DNA from: a virus
Length of the DNA: 31,850 bases
Strand: one strand, 5' to 3'
Virus record (IMG/VR): IMGVR_UViG_3300035698_008552
Span: 1 to 31,850 of that record
Shown: in pieces, positions 2,913 through 18,794 of the stretch
Layout of the letters: every line of letters starts with the position of its first letter
Numbering within the stretch: position 1 is the stretch's first letter
Notes under the pieces: generated by a model
What the model was told of the DNA's origin: nothing
Databases searched by the model: none
Seen by the model: the letters and a program-made list of their open reading frames with translations, nothing else
Translations under genes and position numbers: made by a program

Positions 2913-3385
2913 TATATAAGCTCCAGCGGCGGTTGCGGAGGAGAGGTCGTGACCAACATCCTTGATGCGGCCATAAACGCGCCTGGTTTCTTTTCGATCT
3001 TCCGAAACTCGGTGATGTTAAGCTCGTACTTCACCCGAAGAAGCTGGTCAAAGGTTACGCCATCGTTGTCGTTGGTCTTGGCGTATTCCTCGCGCGACAT
3101 CGATATGGAAGCCTCGTCGACCTTGCGATCAATCTTGTTGGTCATCTTAAGACTCCGACCGTTTTCAAGCGGAACGTTGTTAACGCCTTCGGTAAGCTTG
3201 GCACCGAGTGATACCTTAAGGCTGTCCGTAATGGTCTTTCGCATCGTGAGCTCAACTTCAGCGATCTTCGCAATTTCGGCGTCGATGGCCGTCGTCATAC
3301 GCTTCTTATCGTCAACCAGGTTGGCGATCAGCTGCCTTTGACGATCCCAGAGCATGACGTAATCTTCAAAAGTCATCTGCGTCAT
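2912..3385 (-). CDS. Conserved phage hypothetical protein (DUF7173-like, tentative)
   Basis: 157 residues. The N-terminal two thirds are helical and highly charged (WDRQRQLIANLVDDKKRM, then alternating Glu/Lys/Ile). A segment near residues 72-95 reads NGRSLKMTNKIDRKVDEA, a pattern I associate with a small phage family of unknown function found near recombination genes (DUF7173); this assignment is from memory and tentative. The C-terminus carries a basic KIEKKPG stretch. The start at ATG 3385 overlaps the previous stop as ATGA, and the stop overlaps the next start as TAATG, so the gene is tightly embedded in the operon. No catalytic motif is visible. Confidence 0.7.
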   Translation of the reverse strand: MTQMTFEDYVMLWDRQRQLIANLVDDKKRMTTAIDAEIAKIAEVELTMRKTITDSLKVSLGAKLTEGVNNVPLENGRSLKMTNKIDRKVDEASISMSREEYAKTNDNDGVTFDQLLRVKYELNITEFRKIEKKPGAFMAASRMLVTTSPPQPPLELI

Positions 3386-8548: not shown

Positions 8549-9370
8549 ATGCTTATTGGAAGAAGGCTGCAAGCGAGTAAGGAGCGCCGCTGGGGGAGCG
8601 TCAAGGAGATGACGTTTGCAACGCCAGAGAGCCCTGCCTCAACCACGGAGGCCATTGCCAGGATTGTAGCGAGGTTCGCTGACTGGAGTATTGAGGAGGC
8701 GCTTGAGGACTTCAACTTCGCGCTTCCATACAAGGACTACAACGAGAGCCTTCCATTGGTCGCAAGACCGATGCCACAAATCATGCGGAAGGCCGAGAGA
8801 GCTTTGTTTTCAATATTCGGTGCGGCTTCCGGATGCGCAACCGTGATCAGCTCACAATGGAATCAGCACTTCATTATTGGACGTGAGCATAGTGCCGAGG
8901 CGCTTTACACAAACTGGCAGGCCGCACTCAATATTAGAAGCTCAAAGCACTGGCGGGCGATGGCGACCATGACGCAGTCCAGACTGACTTGGTTTGAATC
9001 GCAAATGGAGATGGCCGCACGCAACGCGTTGTTTTGTCATGGCCAGGTCAATGTGCTTAAGACAGACGACCAGCAGGACGTCAACGTTTATCGCGCGCAA
9101 ATCGAAACCCGAATTTCGCGAGATAGGTTGCGTCATTTTGTGGCCGAGAAGTTTCCAAGTCTCAGGATCCGAAACGCAGGAACGGCTGATGAAGAGGTTG
9201 TGCTTCGCAGTCGAACCGACGAGGGTCTGATCCTCGGTGGCGCTGTCTGGGGAAGGGAGTACTTCGCCAACGGATCACATCTGATCAGCGCGACGATGGC
9301 CCTTCCGAAGGTAAGAGTGCGTCCACCAGGCGCTGATACGGGCGGTGGGCGTTGGTGGTACCCTGGTTGA
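8549..9370 (+). CDS. Protein of unknown function next to the candidate origin
   Basis: 273 residues from ATG 8549, chosen because AAAAGGAG lies 7 bases upstream; the open frame continues upstream to 8402 into repeat DNA without a ribosome site. No family is recognised. The N-terminus is basic (GRRLQASKERRWG). A helical middle follows, with aromatic and Trp-rich segments (SSQWNQHFIIGREHSAEALYTNW) and a run of charged residues with several Arg (RISRDRLRHFVAEKFPSLRIRN). The C-terminus is Gly/Pro/Arg-rich (PGADTGGGRWWYPG). There are no signal peptide, membrane span or cysteine clusters. Being the only rightward gene here, beside the repeats and followed by a converging operon, it could be a DNA-binding replication accessory protein, but that is only inference. 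Confidence 0.75.
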   Translation: MLIGRRLQASKERRWGSVKEMTFATPESPASTTEAIARIVARFADWSIEEALEDFNFALPYKDYNESLPLVARPMPQIMRKAERALFSIFGAASGCATVISSQWNQHFIIGREHSAEALYTNWQAALNIRSSKHWRAMATMTQSRLTWFESQMEMAARNALFCHGQVNVLKTDDQQDVNVYRAQIETRISRDRLRHFVAEKFPSLRIRNAGTADEEVVLRSRTDEGLILGGAVWGREYFANGSHLISATMALPKVRVRPPGADTGGGRWWYPG

Positions 9371-9490: not shown

Positions 9491-9520
9491 AACGAGAAAG
9501 GCCGCCCAATCGGGCGACCT
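9491..9520 (-). terminator. Strong terminator of the leftward accessory operon
   Basis: On the leftward RNA, AGGUCGCCC (9512-9520) pairs completely with GGGCGGCCU (9499-9507), using one G-U pair, around the GAUU loop, then UUCUCGUU follows. The rightward RNA would have a C-A mismatch, so the element is oriented leftward. It closes the gene string starting near 15079. Confidence 0.7.
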
Positions 9521-9632
9521 CGATGTTGTTTGGTTTTTGGCGTTGATTAAGTCAGCTTGGTGGCCAGCACGAAAACTTTACGTTAATCCAGGGCGTCGGT
9601 TGATGCAACCGATATTTCGGCGCGGGCGATGG

Positions 9633-9887
9633 TCAGCGTCTTGGCTCGCTGTGGGCGGTAAGAAACTCGCGCGCATCGCTCGGCGTCATATTCGATGCCA
9701 GCTTTACGAAAGCTCTGGCGGTGGCCAAGGCTTCGTTCCGGTTGCGTGTCCTACCCTTGAAGAAGTAGCTGACCGGAAGTAGTCCATACTTGGGGTGCGC
9801 CACCTCCGCGTACATGTGAACCTCCGGAGTGTAGATGCCTTGGCGGGTGGCTGTGGCGCAGGCTGTGATTTGGTTTGGGTGGGGCAT
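9633..9887 (-). CDS. Small hypothetical protein
   Basis: 84 residues of unknown function. AAGGAG lies 7 bases upstream of ATG 9887. The sequence is polar and basic, with a central HMYAEVAHPKYGLLPVSYFF segment that looks like two beta strands and a C-terminal helix (NEALATARAFVKLAS). There are no membrane or metal-binding features. It is the last gene before the leftward terminator. A rightward open frame overlaps the same DNA (9537-9782) but lacks a ribosome site, so I regard this one as the gene. Confidence 0.65.
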   Translation of the reverse strand: MPHPNQITACATATRQGIYTPEVHMYAEVAHPKYGLLPVSYFFKGRTRNRNEALATARAFVKLASNMTPSDAREFLTAHSEPRR

Positions 9888-9925
9888 GGTCGACTCCTTG
9901 GTTAAGGTTTAATGGGTGGTCGGGG

Positions 9926-10120
9926 TTACCGGTATGTCCAGCGAACCCTGTGCTGCTTTTTGTCTTCGGTGTCGAACCAGCCATTCAAAAAGCATTCGAT
10001 GTGCTGCATCGCAAATGCCCCATCAGCCTTGTGCAATTTGCTGCCTCGTACAAAGAGCGTGATGCTCAGGTCTTTGTTCCAGACTGCGTGGATGGCGGGG
10101 GTTTTGGTGGCCTTGGTCAT
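9926..10120 (-). CDS. Small hypothetical protein with conserved leader
   Basis: 64 residues beginning MTKATKTPAIHAVWNKD. GGGAG lies 8 bases before the ATG. The protein has a short beta-rich body (LSITLFVRGSKLHKADGAF) and a basic, aromatic C-terminus (KKQHRVRWTYR). Its leader at 10134-10161 is the most divergent of the five related leaders in this block, and a hairpin stands before it at 10179-10204, so it may be expressed as its own small unit. Function unknown. Confidence 0.65.
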   Translation of the reverse strand: MTKATKTPAIHAVWNKDLSITLFVRGSKLHKADGAFAMQHIECFLNGWFDTEDKKQHRVRWTYR

Positions 10121-10133
10121 GGTCTTGTCTCCC

Positions 10134-10161
10134 GTTTGCGTTGCCTTACACTTTTCTAATC
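10134..10161 (-). promoter_or_regulatory. Leader repeat, copy 1 (divergent)
   Basis: Read leftward it is GATTAGAA, then 13 bases, then ACGCAAAC, followed by the ribosome site. It shares the GATTAGAA start and the AC(G)NAAAC end with the four other copies, but has 4 to 5 extra bases between them. Confidence 0.5.
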
Positions 10162-10178
10162 GAAGTCGAGAGAGAGTT

Positions 10179-10204
10179 CAACCGGAATCTCGCGACTCCG
10201 GTTG
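10179..10204 (-). terminator. Hairpin between small leftward genes
   Basis: CAACCGGA (10179-10186) and TCCGGTTG (10197-10204) form a perfect 8-bp stem around a 10-base loop, 6 bases after the stop of the gene at 10211. The leftward tail AACUCUCUC is only moderately U-rich, so termination may be partial. Confidence 0.5.
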
Positions 10205-10210
10205 TGTATC

Positions 10211-10432
10211 TTAGGTGTTGAATTTGAAGTCGATGCTGTCGAAGTCGCAGTCTTCAAAACCATCGTTTGCCAAGTCAACCAGGATCGCGGCGGCGGTTCG
10301 GTTGCTTTTAAATGTGAATCCTCCGGAGCAGCCTTGCGTCGTGAAGGATTCGTCTTTGGTAAGTACCGAAGCGAACACTCGTTGGGCCGAGGCCTTGTAG
10401 TCGGTGAAGCGGATGGTGCACTCGATGGGCAT
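10211..10432 (-). CDS. Small hypothetical protein
   Basis: 73 residues from ATG 10432, preferred over an upstream ATG at 10498 because AAAGGA lies just before it. The N-terminal half looks beta-rich (IECTIRFTDYKASAQRVFASVL); the C-terminus is strikingly acidic and aromatic (DLANDGFEDCDFDSIDFKF). A short acidic protein like this could be a DNA mimic or protein inhibitor, but no family supports it. It carries one of the conserved leaders (10456-10478) and is followed by a hairpin. Confidence 0.6.
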   Translation of the reverse strand: MPIECTIRFTDYKASAQRVFASVLTKDESFTTQGCSGGFTFKSNRTAAAILVDLANDGFEDCDFDSIDFKFNT

Positions 10433-10455
10433 GGTGTGGTTCCTTTCGGGTTTCG

Positions 10456-10478
10456 GTTTCCGTACGTACGTTCTAATC
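10456..10478 (-). promoter_or_regulatory. Leader repeat, copy 2
   Basis: Read leftward: GATTAGAACGTACGTACGGAAAC (split at the GTACGTAC self-complementary stretch). It contains the shared GATTAGAA and ACGGAAAC blocks found upstream of four other small leftward genes, and ends about 23 bases before the ATG at 10432. Confidence 0.65.
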
Positions 10479-10522
10479 AAAACCGTTGTGGCGTTCAAGT
10501 ACTATCGACGTTGTAATGTCGA

Positions 10523-10735
10523 TTAGCCTTCGAAGGTTTGGTCGTCCTCTTCGGCGTAGCCAAGGTATTTATGCATCTCTTTGATATAGTTGGCGCGACG
10601 GGTGTTTACAGCTCTCGCGACGTCAGCAAGAGTGAATCCCTCTGGGACAGGTGCCTCGCGCCTTTTCATTTGACCGAACCACTCGACGGTGTCCAGATAC
10701 TTGCCGAACTCCGCCATCACCTTACGCCTAGTCAT
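10523..10735 (-). CDS. Small hypothetical, possibly DNA-binding, protein
   Basis: 70 residues from ATG 10735, which overlaps the stop of the MazG-like gene as ATGA; an upstream GTG at 10744 is less likely. It starts MTRRKVMAEFGKYLDTV. The middle (GFTLADVARAVNTRRANYIKEM) has the spacing of a short helix-turn-helix, with a small-residue turn and a basic recognition-like helix. It would therefore fit a small regulator coupled to the MazG-like protein, but this is a visual guess. The C-terminus is acidic (EEDDQTFEG). Confidence 0.65.
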   Translation of the reverse strand: MTRRKVMAEFGKYLDTVEWFGQMKRREAPVPEGFTLADVARAVNTRRANYIKEMHKYLGYAEEDDQTFEG

Positions 10736-11412
10736 TTGTAGCACGACAGCCGCTGCCCTGCGTTAAAGATTGCGACGTAGTCAGGATCGCCAAAATCTGC
10801 GACAAGCTTTTCTACGGCGACATACTTAGCGAGACCCTCCTCCATCTCGTAAAGGCCTGCCGCTTGTCTTGCAAACTCTGGACCTAAAGATCTCGCGGCG
10901 GCAGACTTACGCTTCGCAAGTGACCAATGCTGCATGGCAGCGAATGCGACAGCTTGTGCGTCTTGCCAAGATGCGTCGGGCTGTTCCTTTTTGGATACCT
11001 CGACGTGCGTGATAACTGCGTTCCCGACAAAGTCAGCCATTGCGTCGTGTATCGAGGTCCAGGTCAAACTACCGTCGTAGGCGGTGTCTTCGGAATCGCG
11101 CGGATCCACGCGCGACGACCTTACCGATTTGAACGCTGGCGTAGGTTGGACGGGCGGCAGTCCCACGGTCTCGTCGCCTTCTACCCACAATCGGTAAAGC
11201 ATGGCCACGGAGTCGATCATCTCGTTGCGAAGCTTACTGATCTCTTGACGGCCCTCCGCGCAGTGGATGGCGTCCTTCACCACCTCGCCGGACTCCTCAG
11301 CAAACTTGGCGATCACGTAGTTGGGCTGCGGGTACTTCTTCATTGCCGACTCGGCTCTTATGATCGAGTCTTTCACCATCTGCATGAAGGTGGTCTCAGA
11401 GTGGTTTTTCAT
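10732..11412 (-). CDS. MazG-like NTP pyrophosphohydrolase family protein
   Basis: 226 residues. Residues about 32-75 carry the all-alpha NTP pyrophosphatase signature EExxE (E39, E40, E43 in AKFAEESGEVV) followed about 20 residues later by ExxD (E64 to D67 in NEMIDSVAML), the metal-binding set of MazG/dUTPase-like enzymes. The C-terminal 130 residues form a second helical region of unknown role. MazG-like proteins of phages hydrolyse nucleotides, and some are thought to affect (p)ppGpp or base-modified nucleotides, so a role in nucleotide pools or host stress response is plausible. The ATG at 11412 follows AAAGGA. Substrate unknown. Confidence 0.8.
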   Translation of the reverse strand: MKNHSETTFMQMVKDSIIRAESAMKKYPQPNYVIAKFAEESGEVVKDAIHCAEGRQEISKLRNEMIDSVAMLYRLWVEGDETVGLPPVQPTPAFKSVRSSRVDPRDSEDTAYDGSLTWTSIHDAMADFVGNAVITHVEVSKKEQPDASWQDAQAVAFAAMQHWSLAKRKSAAARSLGPEFARQAAGLYEMEEGLAKYVAVEKLVADFGDPDYVAIFNAGQRLSCYK

Positions 11413-11479
11413 TTCGTATCCTTTCAGGTTTCAAGGTTATAGGAGCGGACGCTGCCACTCGTCCTCACCAATAATCTCA

Positions 11480-11665
11480 TCACCAGCGTGTCTCAGCTCC
11501 CTCGCGGCGCGCGGCGTTCCACTCAGCGCACTCAGCATCCCACTCGGCCTGAGCTGCGTCCCAGTCGGCCTGGTTGCGGGCTTCGCTGCGACGTTCGGCG
11601 GCCTGATCGCAGCGCTTGGCTGCGGATTCTTGGCGGTCTTTGTTGGCCTGCTGTGCGTTGGTCAT
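11480..11665 (-). CDS. Short Ala/Glu/Arg-rich coiled-coil protein
   Basis: 61 residues composed almost only of Ala, Glu, Arg, Gln, Asp and Trp, with an imperfect 7 to 8 residue periodicity (WDAAQAEWDAECAEWNAARRE), so it is predicted to be one long helix or coiled coil. AGGAG lies 7 bases upstream of ATG 11665, and one of the conserved leaders is at 11687-11710. Function unknown. Long frames on the opposite strand come from its simple codon usage; the ribosome site and leader favour this strand. Confidence 0.65.
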   Translation of the reverse strand: MTNAQQANKDRQESAAKRCDQAAERRSEARNQADWDAAQAEWDAECAEWNAARREGAETRW

Positions 11666-11686
11666 GGTCGTTGCTCCTAGGTGCGT

Positions 11687-11710
11687 GTTTCCGTTGTTAC
11701 ACTTCTAATC
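11687..11710 (-). promoter_or_regulatory. Leader repeat, copy 3
   Basis: Read leftward: GATTAGAAGTGTAACAACGGAAAC (shared GATTAGAA and ACGGAAAC blocks, 8 bases between). It ends about 21 bases before the start codon at 11665. A TATACAT box on the same strand lies about 20 bases further upstream and could be a -10 element. Confidence 0.65.
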
Positions 11711-11733
11711 ACTCTCGCTGGGCATCGCAAGCT

Positions 11734-11961
11734 TTATGTATAGGGATCGAGAGGAAATAAGTCAGCTCTTATTAGCAGCGCGACCATATCGGTTTCGACC
11801 TTACCGTACCAGTGGAACGGTCCAAGCGAGACACTAACCGCGCGACCAACAGCAACAGGGCAGTCAAAGATCACTGTTATTGTAGCAGGGAACGTCTCGA
11901 CGTCGTCTTTTTCGATACTCACGACGCCATCTGCAATCATCGATGAAAGCCACGTATCCAT
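11734..11961 (-). CDS. Small hypothetical protein
   Basis: 75 residues from ATG 11961, with GGAG 7 bases upstream. After a short helical start (MDTWLSSMIADG) the rest looks like a small beta barrel: VVSIEKDDVETFPATITVIFDCP, then VSVSLGPFHWYGKVETDMVALLI. No cysteine cluster or membrane span is present. It begins 21 bases after the cytosine methyltransferase stop and is probably co-transcribed with it. Function unknown. Confidence 0.65.
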   Translation of the reverse strand: MDTWLSSMIADGVVSIEKDDVETFPATITVIFDCPVAVGRAVSVSLGPFHWYGKVETDMVALLIRADLFPLDPYT

Positions 11962-11982
11962 AACCACACTCCAGTCTATCTG

Positions 11983-12774
11983 TTAAAGCCCAGCCTCGTG
12001 CATTAGTATCGCTCGTCCTATAAGTTCGGGTATCGGAGGAAAGACTGCGTTGCCGCAGGCCTTGAGTTTTAGTCGGTCCAGTGCAAGGGAAACCCCATCG
12101 CCAGTTCGTAAAGGCAGCAGACTTGATACCAGGGCACTCCCGCGTGGAGCGCTTCCGTCGCCAGCGAAGGCGTATGTCGCAGTCTGGCGGCCAAATAACC
12201 CGTTGTGCGAGATAAGTCTTTGCCGTCCCTCGCGTTGGGTGTAGGCCACAAGCCAGATCCTCTCTCTGCGATGCGAAGCGCCCATGGCTGCTGCGGGTAT
12301 ATTTTCCCATTCCGCATCATACCCGCGTTCGGCCAGGTCTCCGAGTATTCTACCAAACCATCCTCCTGGCTTGGACTTTGGCCCAGCAAGCAAAGCTGCG
12401 ACGTTTTCCACGATGACGTATTCTGGTCGTAGCTCGCCAACAAGTCTTGCAATTTCACTCCACAATCCACTTCGTGTTCCTTCGCCAATTCCAGCCTGCC
12501 TTCCCGCTACGCTGATGTCCTGGCACGGAAACCCGCCAGTGATTACATCAACGGTGATTGAGTCATTGTCAAGTACGTCGCGCGTTAGCTCGGTCACGTC
12601 GGCATAGCATGGCACGTCGGGCCAGTGCTTGCGGAGTATCGAACGCGGGAACTTCTCAATCTCGCAGAACGCCACGGTCTCGAAGCCTCCCGTGCGTTCG
12701 AGGCCAAGGCTGAATCCGCCGATGCCGCTGAACAAGTCAAGCACGCGAAGCTTCTTTTTTACGGCGTCAGGCAA
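11983..12774 (-). CDS. C5-cytosine DNA methyltransferase
   Basis: 263 residues with the ordered C5-methyltransferase motifs: I, DLFSGIGGFSLG (13-24); IV, GGFPCQDIS with catalytic C84; VI, ENV (123-125); VIII, RRERIWLVA (169-177); and X, GNAVFPPIPELIG (241-253). It would transfer a methyl group from S-adenosylmethionine to cytosine C5 in a specific site. The variable target-recognition stretch is only about 50 residues, so the enzyme is compact for the family. The start is TTG 12774: an in-frame TAA lies directly before it, and AGGGAG is 9 bases upstream. No restriction enzyme is adjacent, so a solitary phage methyltransferase protecting phage DNA is likely. Target sequence unknown. Confidence 0.93.
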   Translation of the reverse strand: MPDAVKKKLRVLDLFSGIGGFSLGLERTGGFETVAFCEIEKFPRSILRKHWPDVPCYADVTELTRDVLDNDSITVDVITGGFPCQDISVAGRQAGIGEGTRSGLWSEIARLVGELRPEYVIVENVAALLAGPKSKPGGWFGRILGDLAERGYDAEWENIPAAAMGASHRRERIWLVAYTQREGRQRLISHNGLFGRQTATYAFAGDGSAPRGSALVSSLLPLRTGDGVSLALDRLKLKACGNAVFPPIPELIGRAILMHEAGL

Positions 12775-12798
12775 TTAGGTCCGCTCCCTTTAATGACC

Positions 12799-12834
12799 GT
12801 TACCCAGCAGCTCTAGTCAATTCTGCTGGGTAAC
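12799..12834. promoter_or_regulatory. Perfect 12-bp inverted repeat in the methyltransferase leader
   Basis: GTTACCCAGCAG (12799-12810) and CTGCTGGGTAAC (12823-12834) are exact reverse complements around a 12-base spacer. It is located 25 bases upstream of the TTG start of the C5-methyltransferase, in the gap after the preceding leftward gene. Neither side has a U-run, so it is not a typical terminator. A dyad operator or an mRNA hairpin controlling the methyltransferase is more likely. Confidence 0.7.
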
Positions 12835-12860
12835 AAAAGCGTTATTTTGACCTGGTCGGA

Positions 12861-13085
12861 TCAAAAGATATCGACGTCGTTAACCGCTACGTCATCATCC
12901 GGATCATCAACAATACGGAAGGCTGAGAAATGGGAACGGTTGACCGTCGTGGTTCCCATCGCGGCGTGCGAGTTTCCTCCTTGGGCAAACTCGGAGACAA
13001 ATGTTTTTGCCTCCCATCCGAGCTTTTCACCCTCAAGCAGGGTGATCCACAATCCTGTGTGGTTGTGCAGGCCTTCGACTTTCAT
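12861..13085 (-). CDS. Small hypothetical protein
   Basis: 74 residues beginning MKVEGLHNHTGLWITLLEGEK. The ATG at 13085 overlaps the TGA of the upstream gene (TGATG), so translation is coupled. It looks like a small beta domain followed by a strongly acidic C-terminus (DDPDDDVAVNDVDIF). It is followed by the inverted repeat before the C5-methyltransferase. No motif suggests a function. Confidence 0.6.
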   Translation of the reverse strand: MKVEGLHNHTGLWITLLEGEKLGWEAKTFVSEFAQGGNSHAAMGTTTVNRSHFSAFRIVDDPDDDVAVNDVDIF

Positions 13086-13270
13086 CAGATCAATCCTTTT
13101 TCAAGTGCGAGTTGTTCGGGCAGCGTGATCGTCCAGATCGGATGAGCATACTCAACTTCGATCTGGGAAAGCGGAAGCCAGACTGCGTTGGCGCGGTTCC
13201 CATCGTTGGAAAACAGAACCGCCTTCTCTGTCGTGCGGTGAACCATGCCTTCGATGTCGATGATTCGCAT
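13085..13270 (-). CDS. Small conserved phage-type beta protein
   Basis: 61 residues. The segment KAVLFSNDGNRANAVWLPLSQIEVE resembles a short beta-hairpin pattern seen in many small phage proteins (a K-A-ILV...-D/E-G...W-hP-S-Q-I theme). This is recognised by eye, and its function is unknown. The ATG at 13270 lies 2 bases after the stop of the beta-class methyltransferase, and its AAAGGAG site lies within the end of that gene. It is therefore part of the methyltransferase operon. Confidence 0.65.
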   Translation of the reverse strand: MRIIDIEGMVHRTTEKAVLFSNDGNRANAVWLPLSQIEVEYAHPIWTITLPEQLALEKGLI

Positions 13271-13272
13271 TA

Positions 13273-14109
13273 TTAGGTCTCCTTTGGTGTGATGCCTTGT
13301 GTATGTGCTGCGTGGTTCATAATTCTGTCAACCGATTTGTCAGCGTACTCGAGACTTATCTCGCAGCCGACCCATCGCCTGCCAGTCTCGATGGCAGCGC
13401 ATGCTGTCGTACCGCTGCCCATAAACGGATCGAGCACGCAGTCTCCAGGATTCGACCAGGAAAGAATATGGTCTCTTGGAAGGGCGATAGGAAACATCGC
13501 AGGGTGCGTGTTGTCTGCGCGACTGTTCTTTTCCTCGTTTATTTGCCAGACGTTAAAGCGATGCCCAAAAGATGGTATCAGCTGCCCCTTATTCTGCTTT
13601 GCAGCAGCCGCCAGAGTACCGTCTTTTTTCCTGGTTGAGCCCTTTCGCTGGGCGTAACCTGCGTACTTATTGGGCCTGTCCTTTATTGGATTAAACGTGC
13701 GCAGCTTGCCCTTTACAAAAACAAACATGTACTCGAAAAGTTGGGGATACCGAAAACCAATCCCGCCGATAGTTCCAAACGTGGACTTATACCAAATCAT
13801 CGTATCGTTCAGTTTGAATCCGCAATGGTCAACAAAATGAATGGCTTGGCGAAAGCTTGTGCATGTCTCGCTGCCTTTAGCGGTGGCATCACTGACGTTC
13901 CAGACTACCACTCCGCCATCTTTTGTCACGCGATAAAGCTCCGCCGCGAGCGATTCAAAGTCAAACGAATAGCCTTTGTAGTCGCGCAGGTTGTCGTACG
14001 GCGGCGACGTCACGGTAAGATCAATAACGCCGTCGGGAATTGTCCGGAGCACCTCTACGTTGTCGCCAACGTATAGTCTGCCGTTTCGAATGTCCTTGAA
14101 CACAGCCAT
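13273..14109 (-). CDS. Beta-class DNA methyltransferase (N6-adenine or N4-cytosine)
   Basis: 278 residues. The catalytic motif TSPPY (34-38) precedes the S-adenosylmethionine-binding motif DPFMGSGTT (227-235), which is the beta-class order. Between them lies a target-recognition region of about 120 residues containing basic stretches (KDRPNKYAGYAQRKGSTRKK). A GCEIS segment after motif I (about 248-252) is also typical. The serine in SPPY is found in both N4-cytosine and N6-adenine enzymes, so the modified base cannot be decided. The ATG is directly adjacent to the upstream TGA (TGAATG). No restriction endonuclease neighbours it, so it is probably a solitary protective methyltransferase. Confidence 0.92.
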   Translation of the reverse strand: MAVFKDIRNGRLYVGDNVEVLRTIPDGVIDLTVTSPPYDNLRDYKGYSFDFESLAAELYRVTKDGGVVVWNVSDATAKGSETCTSFRQAIHFVDHCGFKLNDTMIWYKSTFGTIGGIGFRYPQLFEYMFVFVKGKLRTFNPIKDRPNKYAGYAQRKGSTRKKDGTLAAAAKQNKGQLIPSFGHRFNVWQINEEKNSRADNTHPAMFPIALPRDHILSWSNPGDCVLDPFMGSGTTACAAIETGRRWVGCEISLEYADKSVDRIMNHAAHTQGITPKET

Positions 14110-14307
14110 TCAGTAGAATTGGAAGAGCAGGTTTTCTGCGCCTTCAACTGCGTGCGCGCCACACTCGGCACACTCATATTCGGAGGCATCTGGCTCGCAG
14201 CCGTCAGCCTCCTCCCCGCACGCTGTGCAGAAACCAATGTGGTCGTCTTGCTCGACAGCGGCCATGACTCGGTCGAGGGTGATTGATGCGTGGATGGTAA
14301 TGGTCAT
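14110..14307 (-). CDS. Small zinc-ribbon-like protein
   Basis: 65 residues with two C-x-x-C knuckles, CTAC at 27-30 and CAEC at 46-49, plus C37 between them; a structural zinc site is likely. The surroundings are strongly acidic (EEADGCEPDASEYE). The ATG at 14307 overlaps the upstream stop as ATGA and its own stop touches the methyltransferase start, so the three genes are coupled. Small zinc ribbons in phages often bind nucleic acids or host polymerase subunits, but nothing here proves either. Confidence 0.7.
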   Translation of the reverse strand: MTITIHASITLDRVMAAVEQDDHIGFCTACGEEADGCEPDASEYECAECGAHAVEGAENLLFQFY

Positions 14308-14567
14308 GTGGTTCTCTCCGGGTTCAGCGGGCGGAGGCGAGCGATCAGGGTTGTGGCGCTCTCATCCTCAAGCGGTACTTCGTGGATCTGGATGTTTACC
14401 AACGCGAAGTTCCGACGACCACGCCGAGAAAGACAATAAGCGTCAATGAACCAGCCTGGCTGATAACCGTGATCTGGATTGCGGTCGAACATCAAGATGG
14501 CGTCTCGAACCTGTCGCACTTCAACTATGCCGCGATGGTTTTTGTAGTAAAATATCAGCTGGTTCAT
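14304..14567 (-). CDS. WYL-like domain protein
   Basis: 87 residues reading IFYYKNHRGIVEVRQVRDAILMF, then GWFIDAYCLSRRGRRNFALVNIQ. This pattern (Y-K-N-x-x-G, basic strand, W-h-h-x-A-Y, R-x-F-A-L-x-x-I) resembles the single WYL-like domain proteins common in phages, which are thought to sense ligands or bind nucleic acid. AAGGAG stands 8 bases before ATG 14567. It is followed by the zinc-ribbon gene with a 4-base overlap. Family assignment is by eye. Confidence 0.7.
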   Translation of the reverse strand: MNQLIFYYKNHRGIVEVRQVRDAILMFDRNPDHGYQPGWFIDAYCLSRRGRRNFALVNIQIHEVPLEDESATTLIARLRPLNPERTT

Positions 14568-14600
14568 TCGGGTTCTCCTTGTTGGTCGATGGTTAAGTTG

Positions 14601-14831
14601 TTAGTGGGCGGTGACCTTCGCGCCGGAAAAGCAGGCGTAGCGTGGCTTGCCTTGGGATTGACCGTTGATCATCATGGGAGCGCCAGTCGAGTCGGTCTTG
14701 AAGAACTCGTAGCCAGCCTTTGCCCAGTCAGCGCGGTGCTTGGCCTTGACCTGAATCGACTTTGCGTAGGTGGTGATGCAGACCGTCTTGTTGTTGTCCA
14801 GGGCGGCGTTGATTTGCTCGATCAGGGTCAT
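14601..14831 (-). CDS. Small hypothetical protein with conserved leader
   Basis: 76 residues beginning MTLIEQINAALDNNKTVCITTYAKS, with AAAGGA about 8 bases upstream. The first residues, MTLIE, are shared with the next upstream small gene (14912-15079), though the rest does not obviously align. It has a basic central helix (AKHRADWAKAGYEF) and a polar C-terminus, with no known domain. One of the conserved leaders lies at 14848-14870, and a 9-bp hairpin precedes it. Function unknown. Confidence 0.7.
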   Translation of the reverse strand: MTLIEQINAALDNNKTVCITTYAKSIQVKAKHRADWAKAGYEFFKTDSTGAPMMINGQSQGKPRYACFSGAKVTAH

Positions 14832-14847
14832 GGTTCTTTTCCTTTGC

Positions 14848-14870
14848 GTTTCCGTAGTTCTGTTCTAAGC
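14848..14870 (-). promoter_or_regulatory. Leader repeat, copy 4
   Basis: Read leftward: GCTTAGAACAGAACTACGG followed by AAAC. It differs from copy 5 (15105-15127) at two positions over 23 bases: the second base, and the tenth. It ends 16 bases before ATG 14831. Confidence 0.7.
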
Positions 14871-14873
14871 AGT

Positions 14874-14905
14874 TTCTCGAGTCTCCGCAAGCAGAAACTC
14901 GAGAA
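14874..14905 (-). terminator. 9-bp hairpin between two small leftward genes
   Basis: TTCTCGAGT (14874-14882) and ACTCGAGAA (14897-14905) are perfect complements around a 14-base loop, 6 bases after the stop of the small gene at 14912. No U-run follows, so it may be a partial terminator, an RNA-processing site or an operator just before leader copy 4. Confidence 0.45.
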
Positions 14906-14911
14906 CTTTGT

Positions 14912-15079
14912 TCAGAAAAGGTCGATTCCCGTCGCTTTCTTGAGTGCGTAGCATGCTTCTGCCAGACAGTCGTTGAGCATCTCGTCGTCGTCGCGACCAT
15001 CCATCGAGCTGCGGATATCCTCGATGCAGTCGATCATCGCGCGGTACTCGGGGTTGTTCAGGGCTTCGATCAGGGTCAT
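14912..15079 (-). CDS. Small acidic hypothetical protein (55 residues)
   Basis: I read a 55-residue frame from ATG 15079 to TGA 14912, starting MTLIEALNNPEYRAMIDC. AAAGGA is about 9 bases upstream, and the conserved leader copy 5 is just before it. The middle is acidic (GRDDDEMLNDCLAEACYAL), with cysteines at 18, 38 and 43, and it ends KATGIDLF. It is predicted to be helical. It is the first gene of the leftward accessory block, next to the divergent gap. Function unknown. Confidence 0.65.
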   Translation of the reverse strand: MTLIEALNNPEYRAMIDCIEDIRSSMDGRDDDEMLNDCLAEACYALKKATGIDLF

Positions 15080-15104
15080 TTTCTTGTTTCCTTTGGCTGC
15101 GTTT

Positions 15105-15127
15105 GTTTCCGTAGTTCAGTTCTAATC
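15105..15127 (-). promoter_or_regulatory. Leader repeat, copy 5
   Basis: Read leftward: GATTAGAACTGAACTACGG followed by AAAC. It contains the shared GATTAGAA and ACGGAAAC blocks, and ends about 25 bases before ATG 15079. A second GATTAGA (15139-15145) stands 18 bases further upstream, so the start of the element is doubled here. Confidence 0.7.
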
Positions 15128-15153
15128 GATACCGACGGTCTAATCAACATCAA
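15126..15153 (-). promoter_or_regulatory. Candidate promoter for the leftward accessory block
   Basis: On the leftward strand TTGATG (15148-15153), 16 bases, then TATCGA (15126-15131). It lies in the 141-base divergent gap and would start transcription near leader copy 5. Moderate box matches only. Confidence 0.4.
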
Positions 15154-15220
15154 AAGACGAGCTTGCCGTTTTATTTAACGTAGGGCAGACAAGTCGAGAA
15201 CGTAAAGGAGAGACGCCCCC

Positions 15221-15550
15221 ATGACCTTATGCACTTGGCCCAGCGGAACTTGCGCGTGCTACTTGGAGCGTATTGAAAAGCCTCACGACCATGCAGGACG
15301 TGTGTGGATGCACTGCGAAGATGGCTTGAGTTTTACGAAGGCCAGTATGGCGCGGTTTATGATGTTCTGCCTCGGGAATAACGTGGAAATAGTCGACGTC
15401 TCCGCGTTTAATCCGAAGTTTTCCGGATCCCAAGTCACGGCGGCAATTAGACTGCGCCCTGACCAGTTCGAGGCGTTCGAGACGGCTACGCGAGGCAAAC
15501 TGCGCGAGCCTCCGACGCTGAGTCTGAACTGGTCGGATGGGTCATGCTAG
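15221..15550 (+). CDS. Hypothetical protein
   Basis: 109 residues with AAAGGAG about 10 bases before ATG 15221. It opens with a Cys-rich start (C4, C11, C13), then a mixed alpha/beta body (GRVWMHCEDGLSFTKASMARFMMF, then VEIVDVSAFNPKFSGSQVTAAIRL). No family is recognised and no membrane segment is present. It is the first gene of the rightward small-gene operon and overlaps the following nuclease gene by 7 bases. Confidence 0.7.
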   Translation: MTLCTWPSGTCACYLERIEKPHDHAGRVWMHCEDGLSFTKASMARFMMFCLGNNVEIVDVSAFNPKFSGSQVTAAIRLRPDQFEAFETATRGKLREPPTLSLNWSDGSC

Positions 15551-15966
15551 GACCACGTGGTGCAAAGGCAAAGGGAGCCACAGCCGAGCGCGAGCTTGCT
15601 GCGGTTCTTACCGGTTGGGCAAAGGACGCTGGGATCACGATTGCCCTGTTTCGCAACCTAGAACAAACTCGCTCCGGTGGTCACGACCTGGTCGGCACAG
15701 AGAAGTACGGGATGGCCATCGAGGTCAAACGCGTCGAGGCCTTGGCGATGCCCAGCTGGTGGCGACAGGCTGTGCGTCAAGCTGCTGCCCTTGAAGGATG
15801 CGATCCAGTTCTGGCGTGGCGGCAAAACCACAAGCCTTGGCGCTTTCGAGTTCGCGCGTACGTGTGGCCTTGTAACGTTCCGATGGTCCTCGACATGGAT
15901 GCCGACGAGTTTCGCAAGTGGTTTCTGAGTAAGATAGCTGTTGCGAAGCCGTCGATTACTGAGTAG
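15544..15966 (+). CDS. PD-(D/E)XK endonuclease (Holliday-junction-resolvase-like)
   Basis: 140 residues with the compact nuclease core: E15 in GATAERELAAVL, D48 in RSGGHDLVG, and E60-x-K62 in GMAIEVKRVEAL, followed by an amphipathic helix (WWRQAVRQAAAL) and a strand LAWRQNHKPWRFRV. This layout matches small phage PDDEXK nucleases related to archaeal Hjc-type resolvases. It may resolve branched DNA before packaging, which would fit the recombination genes elsewhere in the window. It starts at ATG 15544, within the end of the previous gene. A sequence-nonspecific nuclease is an alternative. Confidence 0.8.
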   Translation: MLGPRGAKAKGATAERELAAVLTGWAKDAGITIALFRNLEQTRSGGHDLVGTEKYGMAIEVKRVEALAMPSWWRQAVRQAAALEGCDPVLAWRQNHKPWRFRVRAYVWPCNVPMVLDMDADEFRKWFLSKIAVAKPSITE

Positions 15967-16001
15967 TGATGCTGCAACGTTAACCAGACGGAGCAACGCC
16001 A

Positions 16002-17867: not shown

Positions 17868-18163
17868 CCTACTATCACGCCAGGCGCGAGCTGGCCACCG
17901 AGGCTGGGGATACGTATCGGTCGCACTTTGCAGTACGCGTCGAGCTTGAACCTAACAACGGATGGGTTTTGGTGCTGACGCCTCTCTCCAACTCGGTTTT
18001 CGACTACCCTATTGGTCCGCTGCTATCCATTGCGGAGATCGACCTGACCGGATACGCGCGACTGCGGAGGCGACCAGAGTCTCATCGCAAGACTTCAGCG
18101 CCGCCACTAAAGAATCCGATGGCCGCGTTCTCGGCTGACAAGAAACCGTGGGAGATCAGTTGA
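17864..18163 (+). CDS. Hypothetical protein
   Basis: 99 residues from ATG 17864 (ATGA overlap). The N-terminal half is beta-like (HFAVRVELEPNNGWVLVLTPLSN). From about residue 66 a basic, Pro-rich tail follows (RLRRRPESHRKTSAPPLK). No family is recognised. It is the last gene before the DUF3489 gene; the 70-base gap that follows shows no hairpin of note. Confidence 0.6.
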   Translation: MTYYHARRELATEAGDTYRSHFAVRVELEPNNGWVLVLTPLSNSVFDYPIGPLLSIAEIDLTGYARLRRRPESHRKTSAPPLKNPMAAFSADKKPWEIS

Positions 18164-18233
18164 CTCTGATGTAAAAACTGCTTAGAAACGAGTCATGGCA
18201 ACCACGCCGCAGCATTCGGAAGGAACCACCGAA

Positions 18234-18794
18234 ATGAAACTCACCGACACGCAGCTTATCATCCTGACCAAAGCATCGATGCATCCTGAGCTTATCGCGA
18301 TGCCTCTTCCCTCGAACCTTCGCGGTGGGGCAGCAACAAAAACGGTCTCCTCGATGATCGCAAAGGGACTTCTGGTCGAGGTCGATGCGAACATTCGCGT
18401 CGGGGACGTGATGTGGCGCGAAACTGGCGACGGTCACGGGGTCACCCTGATGGCGACAGCCGAGGGGATGGCCGCCATCGGCCTGGACGAGCTCACACGC
18501 GCGCCAACAGCCGCTGCGCCGCCCATGGAGGCACCGACGCAGGCTGCGCCGACGCCAGAGCCTTCGGCGGCCACGCCAGCGCCTGTCCAGACCAAGATCA
18601 AAGTCAAGGGCCGCAAGCAGGAGGCGCTGATCTCGATGCTTAAGGACGGCACAACGGCTGTCGAGGCAGCTGCAGCGCTTGACTGGGAGGTCCACACTGT
18701 TCGCGGAGCCATCTTCGGAGCCATCAAGAAGGCTGGTCACACAATCACCTCGGTCAAGGTCGAAGGTCGAGGCCGGGTTTACTACGCGGACTGA
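18234..18794 (+). CDS. DUF3489 domain protein, helix-turn-helix-like
   Basis: 186 residues from ATG 18234, selected because GGAAGGA lies 9 bases upstream and homologous proteins typically start MKLTDTQLIIL-like; ATG 18195 would add 13 residues. Residues 1-85 form a helical, winged-type domain. A Pro/Ala-rich linker follows (about 90-122). The C-terminal domain (KQEALISMLKDGTTAVEAAAALDWEVHTVRGAI) matches DUF3489, with its TVRG core and final GRGRVYY. DUF3489 is thought to be a DNA-binding helix-turn-helix. It stands just before the late operon, so a regulatory role is plausible, though unproven. Confidence 0.8.
   Translation: MKLTDTQLIILTKASMHPELIAMPLPSNLRGGAATKTVSSMIAKGLLVEVDANIRVGDVMWRETGDGHGVTLMATAEGMAAIGLDELTRAPTAAAPPMEAPTQAAPTPEPSAATPAPVQTKIKVKGRKQEALISMLKDGTTAVEAAAALDWEVHTVRGAIFGAIKKAGHTITSVKVEGRGRVYYAD

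Follow-up and report, generated by a model that had tools for sequence, protein, structure and literature searches.

Repeated leaders ahead of small leftward genes of an uncultured phage are very probably the downstream halves of sigma70-type promoters

The T7 A1 and T5 N25 promoters are counted among those strong early promoters of phages that have a first transcribed sequence rich in purines. In that system such a sequence is reported to favour promoter escape (PMC12464699). Start maps from nine bacteria give 17 bp between the boxes and 6 bp from the -10 box to the start as the commonest spacings, and the majority of alphaproteobacterial promoters are reported to be without a T at position -7 (-7T) (PMC8407463); for Caulobacter RpoD, the quoted consensus is TTGaCgS and GCtANAWC (PMC8144410). 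Here we analyse a five-copy leader element on the minus strand of the virus record IMGVR_UViG_3300035698_008552, all 31,850 bases of which (GC 0.55, with phage replication, packaging and head genes) are referred to as the window. The five leaders are very probably the downstream halves of sigma70-type promoters that are read by the host RNA polymerase and head leftward small-gene units; the promoter reading itself is well supported by the positions and spacing of the boxes.

The initial annotation described a first word, GATTAGAA, followed after 7 to 13 bases by a second, ACGGAAAC, ahead of the ribosome sites of five small genes. All five leaders are found where it placed them, each on the minus strand before a separate small open reading frame (ORF) with a ribosome site. 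These ORFs encode 64, 73, 61, 76 and 55 amino acids, and none of the five proteins was matched in a PHROGs and Pfam search at an E-value of 0.001. The description of the words needs some amendment, since copy 4 reads GCTTAGAA instead of GATTAGAA and the gaps measure 12, 7, 8, 7 and 7 in copies 1 to 5; copies 4 and 5 do differ, as described, at 2 of 23 positions. The pattern GATTAGAA-N5..20-ACGGAAAC has three exact matches in the window and none in 100 dinucleotide shuffles, and the variant patterns of copies 1 and 4 have one match each against none in 100 shuffles. The five leaders are genuine and not a product of chance.

It had also been proposed that no standard element explains these repeats, which does not hold: a -35 and a -10 box, 17 bp apart, are present in every copy. 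Only half of the element had been caught, and the TTGNNN upstream was overlooked. The boxes and leaders of the five copies, together with a sixth promoter of the same type, are as follows.

10176..10181, minus strand: copy 1 -35 box, TTGAAC, 17 bp from the -10 box
10153..10158, minus strand: copy 1 -10 box, TAGAAA; predicted start 10146
10121..10146, minus strand: copy 1 leader, 26 nt, no T, contains ACGCAAAC
10493..10498, minus strand: copy 2 -35 box, TTGAAC
10470..10475, minus strand: copy 2 -10 box, TAGAAC; predicted start 10463
10433..10463, minus strand: copy 2 leader, 31 nt, no T, opens with ACGGAAAC
11725..11730, minus strand: copy 3 -35 box, TTGCGA
11702..11707, minus strand: copy 3 -10 box, TAGAAG; predicted start 11695
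11666..11695, minus strand: copy 3 leader, 30 nt, one T, opens with AACGGAAAC
14885..14890, minus strand: copy 4 -35 box, TTGCGG, within an inverted repeat
14862..14867, minus strand: copy 4 -10 box, TAGAAC; predicted start 14855
14832..14855, minus strand: copy 4 leader, 24 nt, no T, opens with ACGGAAAC
15142..15147, minus strand: copy 5 -35 box, TTGATT
15119..15124, minus strand: copy 5 -10 box, TAGAAC; predicted start 15112
15080..15112, minus strand: copy 5 leader, 33 nt, no T, opens with ACGGAAAC
18160..18188, plus strand: sixth promoter, TTGACT-17-TAGAAA, without ACGGAAAC, ahead of the rightward gene 18195/18234

TTGNNN stands 17 bp from TAGAAN in all five copies, and none of 100,000 shuffles gave any common offset; only one other TTG, at 23, falls within the scanned offsets. 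Across the window, TTG-17-TAGAA has six matches where 0.5 are expected, and all six lie ahead of gene starts. TTGNNN is present at all six sites, and -7T is absent from every -10 box (TAGAA followed by A, C or G), so that none has the Escherichia coli form. In copies 2, 4 and 5, ACGGAAAC begins 6 nt past the end of the -10 box, and in copy 3 this distance is 7 nt, so that four of the five copies have it at the predicted start of transcription or directly beside it. The earlier suggestion of a shared transcription start was therefore right in kind, as both the geometry and the relatives described below fit promoters that start at or next to ACGG in these four copies. We conclude that the element is a predicted sigma70-type -35/-10 promoter without -7T, a form common in Alphaproteobacteria.

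Of the described systems, alphaproteobacterial sigma70 (RpoD) promoters are like the window sites in their TTG -35 box, 17-bp spacer, -10 box starting with TA, 6-7 nt to the start and lack of -7T, as far as the cited accounts extend (PMC8407463, PMC8144410). The TANAWC part of the Caulobacter -10 consensus is found in three of the six window boxes (TAGAAC), whereas its leading GC, as quoted, is found in none, and no box carries the full consensus (PMC8144410). The window also differs from host promoter sets in the much greater uniformity of GATTAGAA and of the start sequence. It shares host-type boxes, a 17-bp spacer and a pyrimidine-poor start region with the T7 A1 and T5 N25 early promoters (PMC12464699), but repeats one start sequence before several genes, and activity is only predicted. 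In Cluster K mycobacteriophages, short repeats likewise stand before many small genes and are kept with some gene families in relatives; in the cited description, however, the one named SAS, a 13-bp GGGATAGGAGCCC, is linked to the start of translation, and that named ESAS is an inverted repeat (PMC3203893). The window motif is placed differently from SAS, which lies at the ribosome site or start codon: it ends 13-25 nt upstream of the ATG in all five copies, as first annotated, and is at the predicted transcription start in four. The 17-bp dyad repeats of Cluster O mycobacteriophages are also multi-copy and partly intergenic, but are described as palindromic and mostly away from promoters, whereas the window repeats are asymmetric and are themselves predicted promoters (PMC4351075).

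As for the reader of these promoters, we infer the class of the host from relatives of the phage proteins. Among terminase relatives in genomes, the four closest (69-70%) come from Zhengella, Pararhizobium, Mesorhizobium and Pseudogemmobacter, all Alphaproteobacteria, and the best terminase matches among annotated phages are to Brevundimonas and Roseobacter phages at 45-47%. An alphaproteobacterial host would be consistent with the -10 boxes, since the trait usual in that class, the lack of -7T, is seen at all six window sites.

Two relatives bear on the promoters directly. The nearest, IMGVR_UViG_3300032462_000036 (G001, 34 kb), has a primase 84% identical to that of the window, and a more distant one, IMGVR_UViG_3300028364_000048 (G003, 50.7 kb), has a terminase, portal and capsid that are 76%, 77% and 84% identical. 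All three records are classed as linear and may be fragments. Box matches with no family-type -10 box or no gene start behind them were excluded by eye, removing 4 of 16 in G003 (19391, 33056, 35789, 28322), 1 of 7 in the window (24781) and 2 of 7 in G001 (16460, 1480); a TTG-17-TAGATC at 3182 of G001 also went uncounted. In G001, small genes are preceded by four promoters of the window type, of which three carry TTG and the fourth TGGCAA. G003 has 12 promoters with different boxes, T[GT]TACA-17-TA[TC][TC]CT, and again a recurring start sequence exactly 6 nt past the -10 box, which is ACGGA[AC]AC in six, ACGGACAA in one, ACGAACAC in one and AGGAATAC in four. Six of the eight occurrences of ACGGA[AC]AC in the whole of G003 are at predicted promoter starts; in the loci of other terminase relatives its frequency is about 2.5 per 50 kb. 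The copy-3 gene has orthologues in both G001 and G003, and a promoter with an ACGGA leader precedes the gene in all three phages.

The sixth window promoter has its orthologue at the same site in G001. The listed ATG at 18195 coincides with its predicted +1; G001 has no ATG matching 18195 and does have one, behind a ribosome site, matching 18234, and the gene probably starts at 18234 for this reason. The divergent intergenic region at 15138-15197, which includes the copy 5 -35 box, is 87% identical to G001 over 60 bp while the neighbouring genes differ, and may hold a rightward promoter or operator. In G003, a second promoter class (31731, 23718, 17097, 14701) starts with AGGAATACAA and not ACGGACAC at the same distance from the -10 box. 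By eye, some of the spacers at the G003 promoters 26057, 23180 and 38003 are dyad-symmetric (AGCGCC...GGCGCT; TGTACA...TGTACA), possibly forming an operator.

The strictness of a repeated sequence within one phage could also mean that a polymerase or sigma factor encoded by the phage uses the element as its promoter, or that the element is the operator of a phage regulator overlapping a promoter. The different boxes of G003 could then reflect a different reader, and the dyad symmetry seen by eye in some of its spacers is compatible with such an operator. The arrangement of TTG, 17 bp, hexamer and 6 nt to the start is, however, the geometry of host sigma70, and sigma-70 region 2 (PF04542) was not found in the three contigs, which may be fragments, while the control search matched in 10 of 14 genomes. 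A search of the three records for a T7-type RNA polymerase (PF00940) gave no match, the control genomes likewise being without one. A phage factor could be encoded elsewhere because the three linear records may be incomplete; even so, we regard this explanation as very improbable.

That the start sequence recurs at all could have a passive cause, with promoter and leader spread by duplication or recombination and ACGGAAAC either carried along or drifting within an A-rich, U-poor leader. Copies 4 and 5 look like a duplicated pair, given their few differences and the MTLIE with which both genes begin. The G003 copies are near-identical between -10 and +8, and the start sequence is looser in G001, as passive inheritance would allow. 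When the window copies are aligned on the -10 box, however, mean pairwise identity is 0.88 in the -10 box and 0.62 from +1 to +8 (0.62 also in the -35 box), and falls to 0.47 across the spacer and 0.32 over the 6 nt that precede the start. Recent copying is disfavoured by this, since the spacer and pre-start bases are less alike than the -10 box and the first transcribed bases; and G003 has ACGGA[AC]AC in that position too, with different boxes in front of it. We give a passive origin a substantial chance, a little short of even.

The oddity of the system is that most of the predicted messages share nearly the same first eight letters and then have almost no U. We examined T content in 21 promoters (5 from the window, 4 from G001 and 12 from G003, picked by boxes and gene start, with the sixth promoter and its G001 orthologue left out). 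A T is found at -1 in 15 of the 21 and at +1 to +5 in none. The window leaders contain 1 T in 144 nt, those of G001 4 in 116 and those of G003 32 in 383, and the 30 nt before the 28 long window ORFs average 17.7% T. At most one T in the 24 nt before the ATG is seen in all five window leaders and in 6 of 84 other starts, some of them belonging to ORFs that are possibly not genes (Fisher 1e-5). The depletion begins at the predicted start, a break that fits a constraint acting on the RNA. The window leaders are predicted to fold weakly (-0.4 to -2.9 kcal/mol); four fold less stably than single-base shuffles do on average, and copy 2 folds more stably. ACA motifs are reported to raise translation in Salmonella (PMC3879156), and four of the five leaders carry ACA in an A/C-rich stretch before the ribosome site; copy 4, on the other hand, has no ACA, and the known cases, within the cited account, are enterobacterial mRNAs (PMC3879156). 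Roles of the leaders in promoter escape or in ACA-assisted translation would be analogies.

An RNA-level constraint also raises the possibility that the first RNA bases serve a phage or host factor as a binding or regulatory site, or act as an RNA stability signal. The recurrence of one +1 motif downstream of different promoters in two phages, and with the copy-3 gene orthologues of three, would agree with this, as does the onset of T depletion at the predicted start. The motif is nevertheless poorly kept in G001, and among the records of 50 relatives ACGGA[AC]AC before a ribosome site and ATG was found only in G003 (four times) and in one other, G011 (once); an Rfam scan of the window at the gathering threshold gave no match, and no candidate for a binding protein came to light, none having been sought. 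We consider such a site unlikely. Equally doubtful in our estimation is the related proposal that selection acts separately on ACGGA[AC]AC at +1 as a 5'-end tag of phage messages, one preserved through changes in the boxes and recognised by a host or phage factor that acts on the first RNA or transcribed DNA bases. A processing or RNA-binding site at the element, as offered in the initial annotation, is possible, and nothing requires one. The presence of ACGGA[AC]AC at +1 in two phages with different boxes is a residual oddity, most simply accounted for by an inherited A-rich leader.

Wider searches added little. A stricter leader motif with a preceding TT was found in 1 of 12 records, again G003; a scan for the G003 form of the element returned G003 itself only; and alignment of the primase brought no new relatives. 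An exact scan of IMG/VR for the whole element gave a single match, inside a 412-amino-acid ORF of an unrelated record (L005), which we judged to be chance. Among the titles listed in searches of a paper library for conserved start motifs in phage early promoters, none describes the ACGGA[AC]AC motif, which is weak evidence of absence. A tRNA scan found none. Another pre-gene sequence, ATAGAGA, occurs in two further relatives, twice in the record L101 and once in L098. At 9900-10001 and 12340-12436 of L101, a more distant relative, two copies of TTGACC...GGCAATAATGGGCCATAGAGACACACCGGCAAGGA stand before genes, a repeated promoter with a U-poor leader.

The initial annotation placed a hairpin ahead of three of the leaders, and inverted repeats are confirmed at copies 1, 2 and 4, at or just past the stop of the preceding gene.

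10179-10204, minus strand: inverted repeat between the preceding gene and copy 1, touching the -35 box
10504-10523, minus strand: inverted repeat upstream of copy 2
14874-14905, minus strand: inverted repeat over the -35 box and part of the spacer of copy 4

These hairpins are probably terminators of the preceding units; in G001, the promoter of the copy-3 gene is preceded by a hairpin with a T-rich tail. On a gene list of our choosing, the element occupies five of the seven leftward gaps of at least 60 nt and none of the eight shorter ones. Units of hairpin, promoter, leader and gene do exist, as the idea of gene cassettes implied, and a copy stands before the same gene in relatives in the case of copy 3. 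The idea fails for copy 4, whose gene is 96% identical in G001 but lacks a promoter of this kind within the preceding 160 nt there; it is the second gene of an operon in G001, overlapping the end of the gene that the promoter at 8695 heads. Nor does it suit the gene family at 9633-9887, which by eye has its own promoter-like sequence in G001, G003 and L101 and none in the window. The element is therefore a mark of where transcription units begin and is not tied to particular genes. The leftward region also holds two DNA methyltransferase genes, 11983-12774 and 13273-14109. The large leftward gap before the first, a cytosine methyltransferase gene, is without the element, and a long near-perfect inverted repeat (TTACCCAGCAG ... 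CTGCTGGGTAA) lies there at 12775-12860.

Several observations weigh against promoters read by an alphaproteobacterial host. TAGAAN matches TATAAT at only four of six positions, and a consensus promoter scan of 9500-16000 found no promoter, a result explained by its requirement for T at the last -10 position; every G003 -10 box ends in T, unlike those of the window. In copy 1, ACGCAAAC (10134-10141) starts 11 nt past the -10 box, off the predicted transcription start. ACGGAA is kept in only one of the four G001 leaders, which read ACGGAAGC once and ACGCAACG, AGCAGAAAC and ACAGCAAC in the remaining three. The window hairpins are without clear T tracts, such tracts being weak. As to the host, TTGAC-18N-TAGAAC has six matches in four alphaproteobacterial genomes against four in the reversed control, with no clear enrichment; 10 of the 26 terminase relatives in genomes are from Methanolobus, an archaeon (50-54%); and the closest capsids among annotated phages are those of Synechococcus phages, at 60.5%. 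Finally, U-poor ribosome sites are frequent, with at most one T in the 24 nt at 11 of 89 window starts and 17 of 72 G001 starts. As such sites are common in these phages, part of the U depletion is general, and the leaders thus form the extreme end of a general U-poor trend.

In the promoter reading that we favour, host RNA polymerase would read a -35 box TTGNNN, 17 bp and a -10 box TAGAAN, then 6-7 nt to the start, giving messages that open with or next to ACGGAAAC in four of the five copies. Each promoter would head a leftward unit whose first gene is a small phage gene, probably early, and three of the five would lie behind or over a hairpin that probably terminates the preceding unit. A leader of 24-33 nt, nearly free of U and with little structure, could ease promoter escape and keep the ribosome site open.

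This reading turns an apparently unexplained repeat into a predicted promoter set and transcription map for the leftward small-gene region of an uncultured phage. Two phages with different boxes and the same first letters in their predicted messages would make a case that the first transcribed bases are under selection; annotation usually ignores this part of a promoter.

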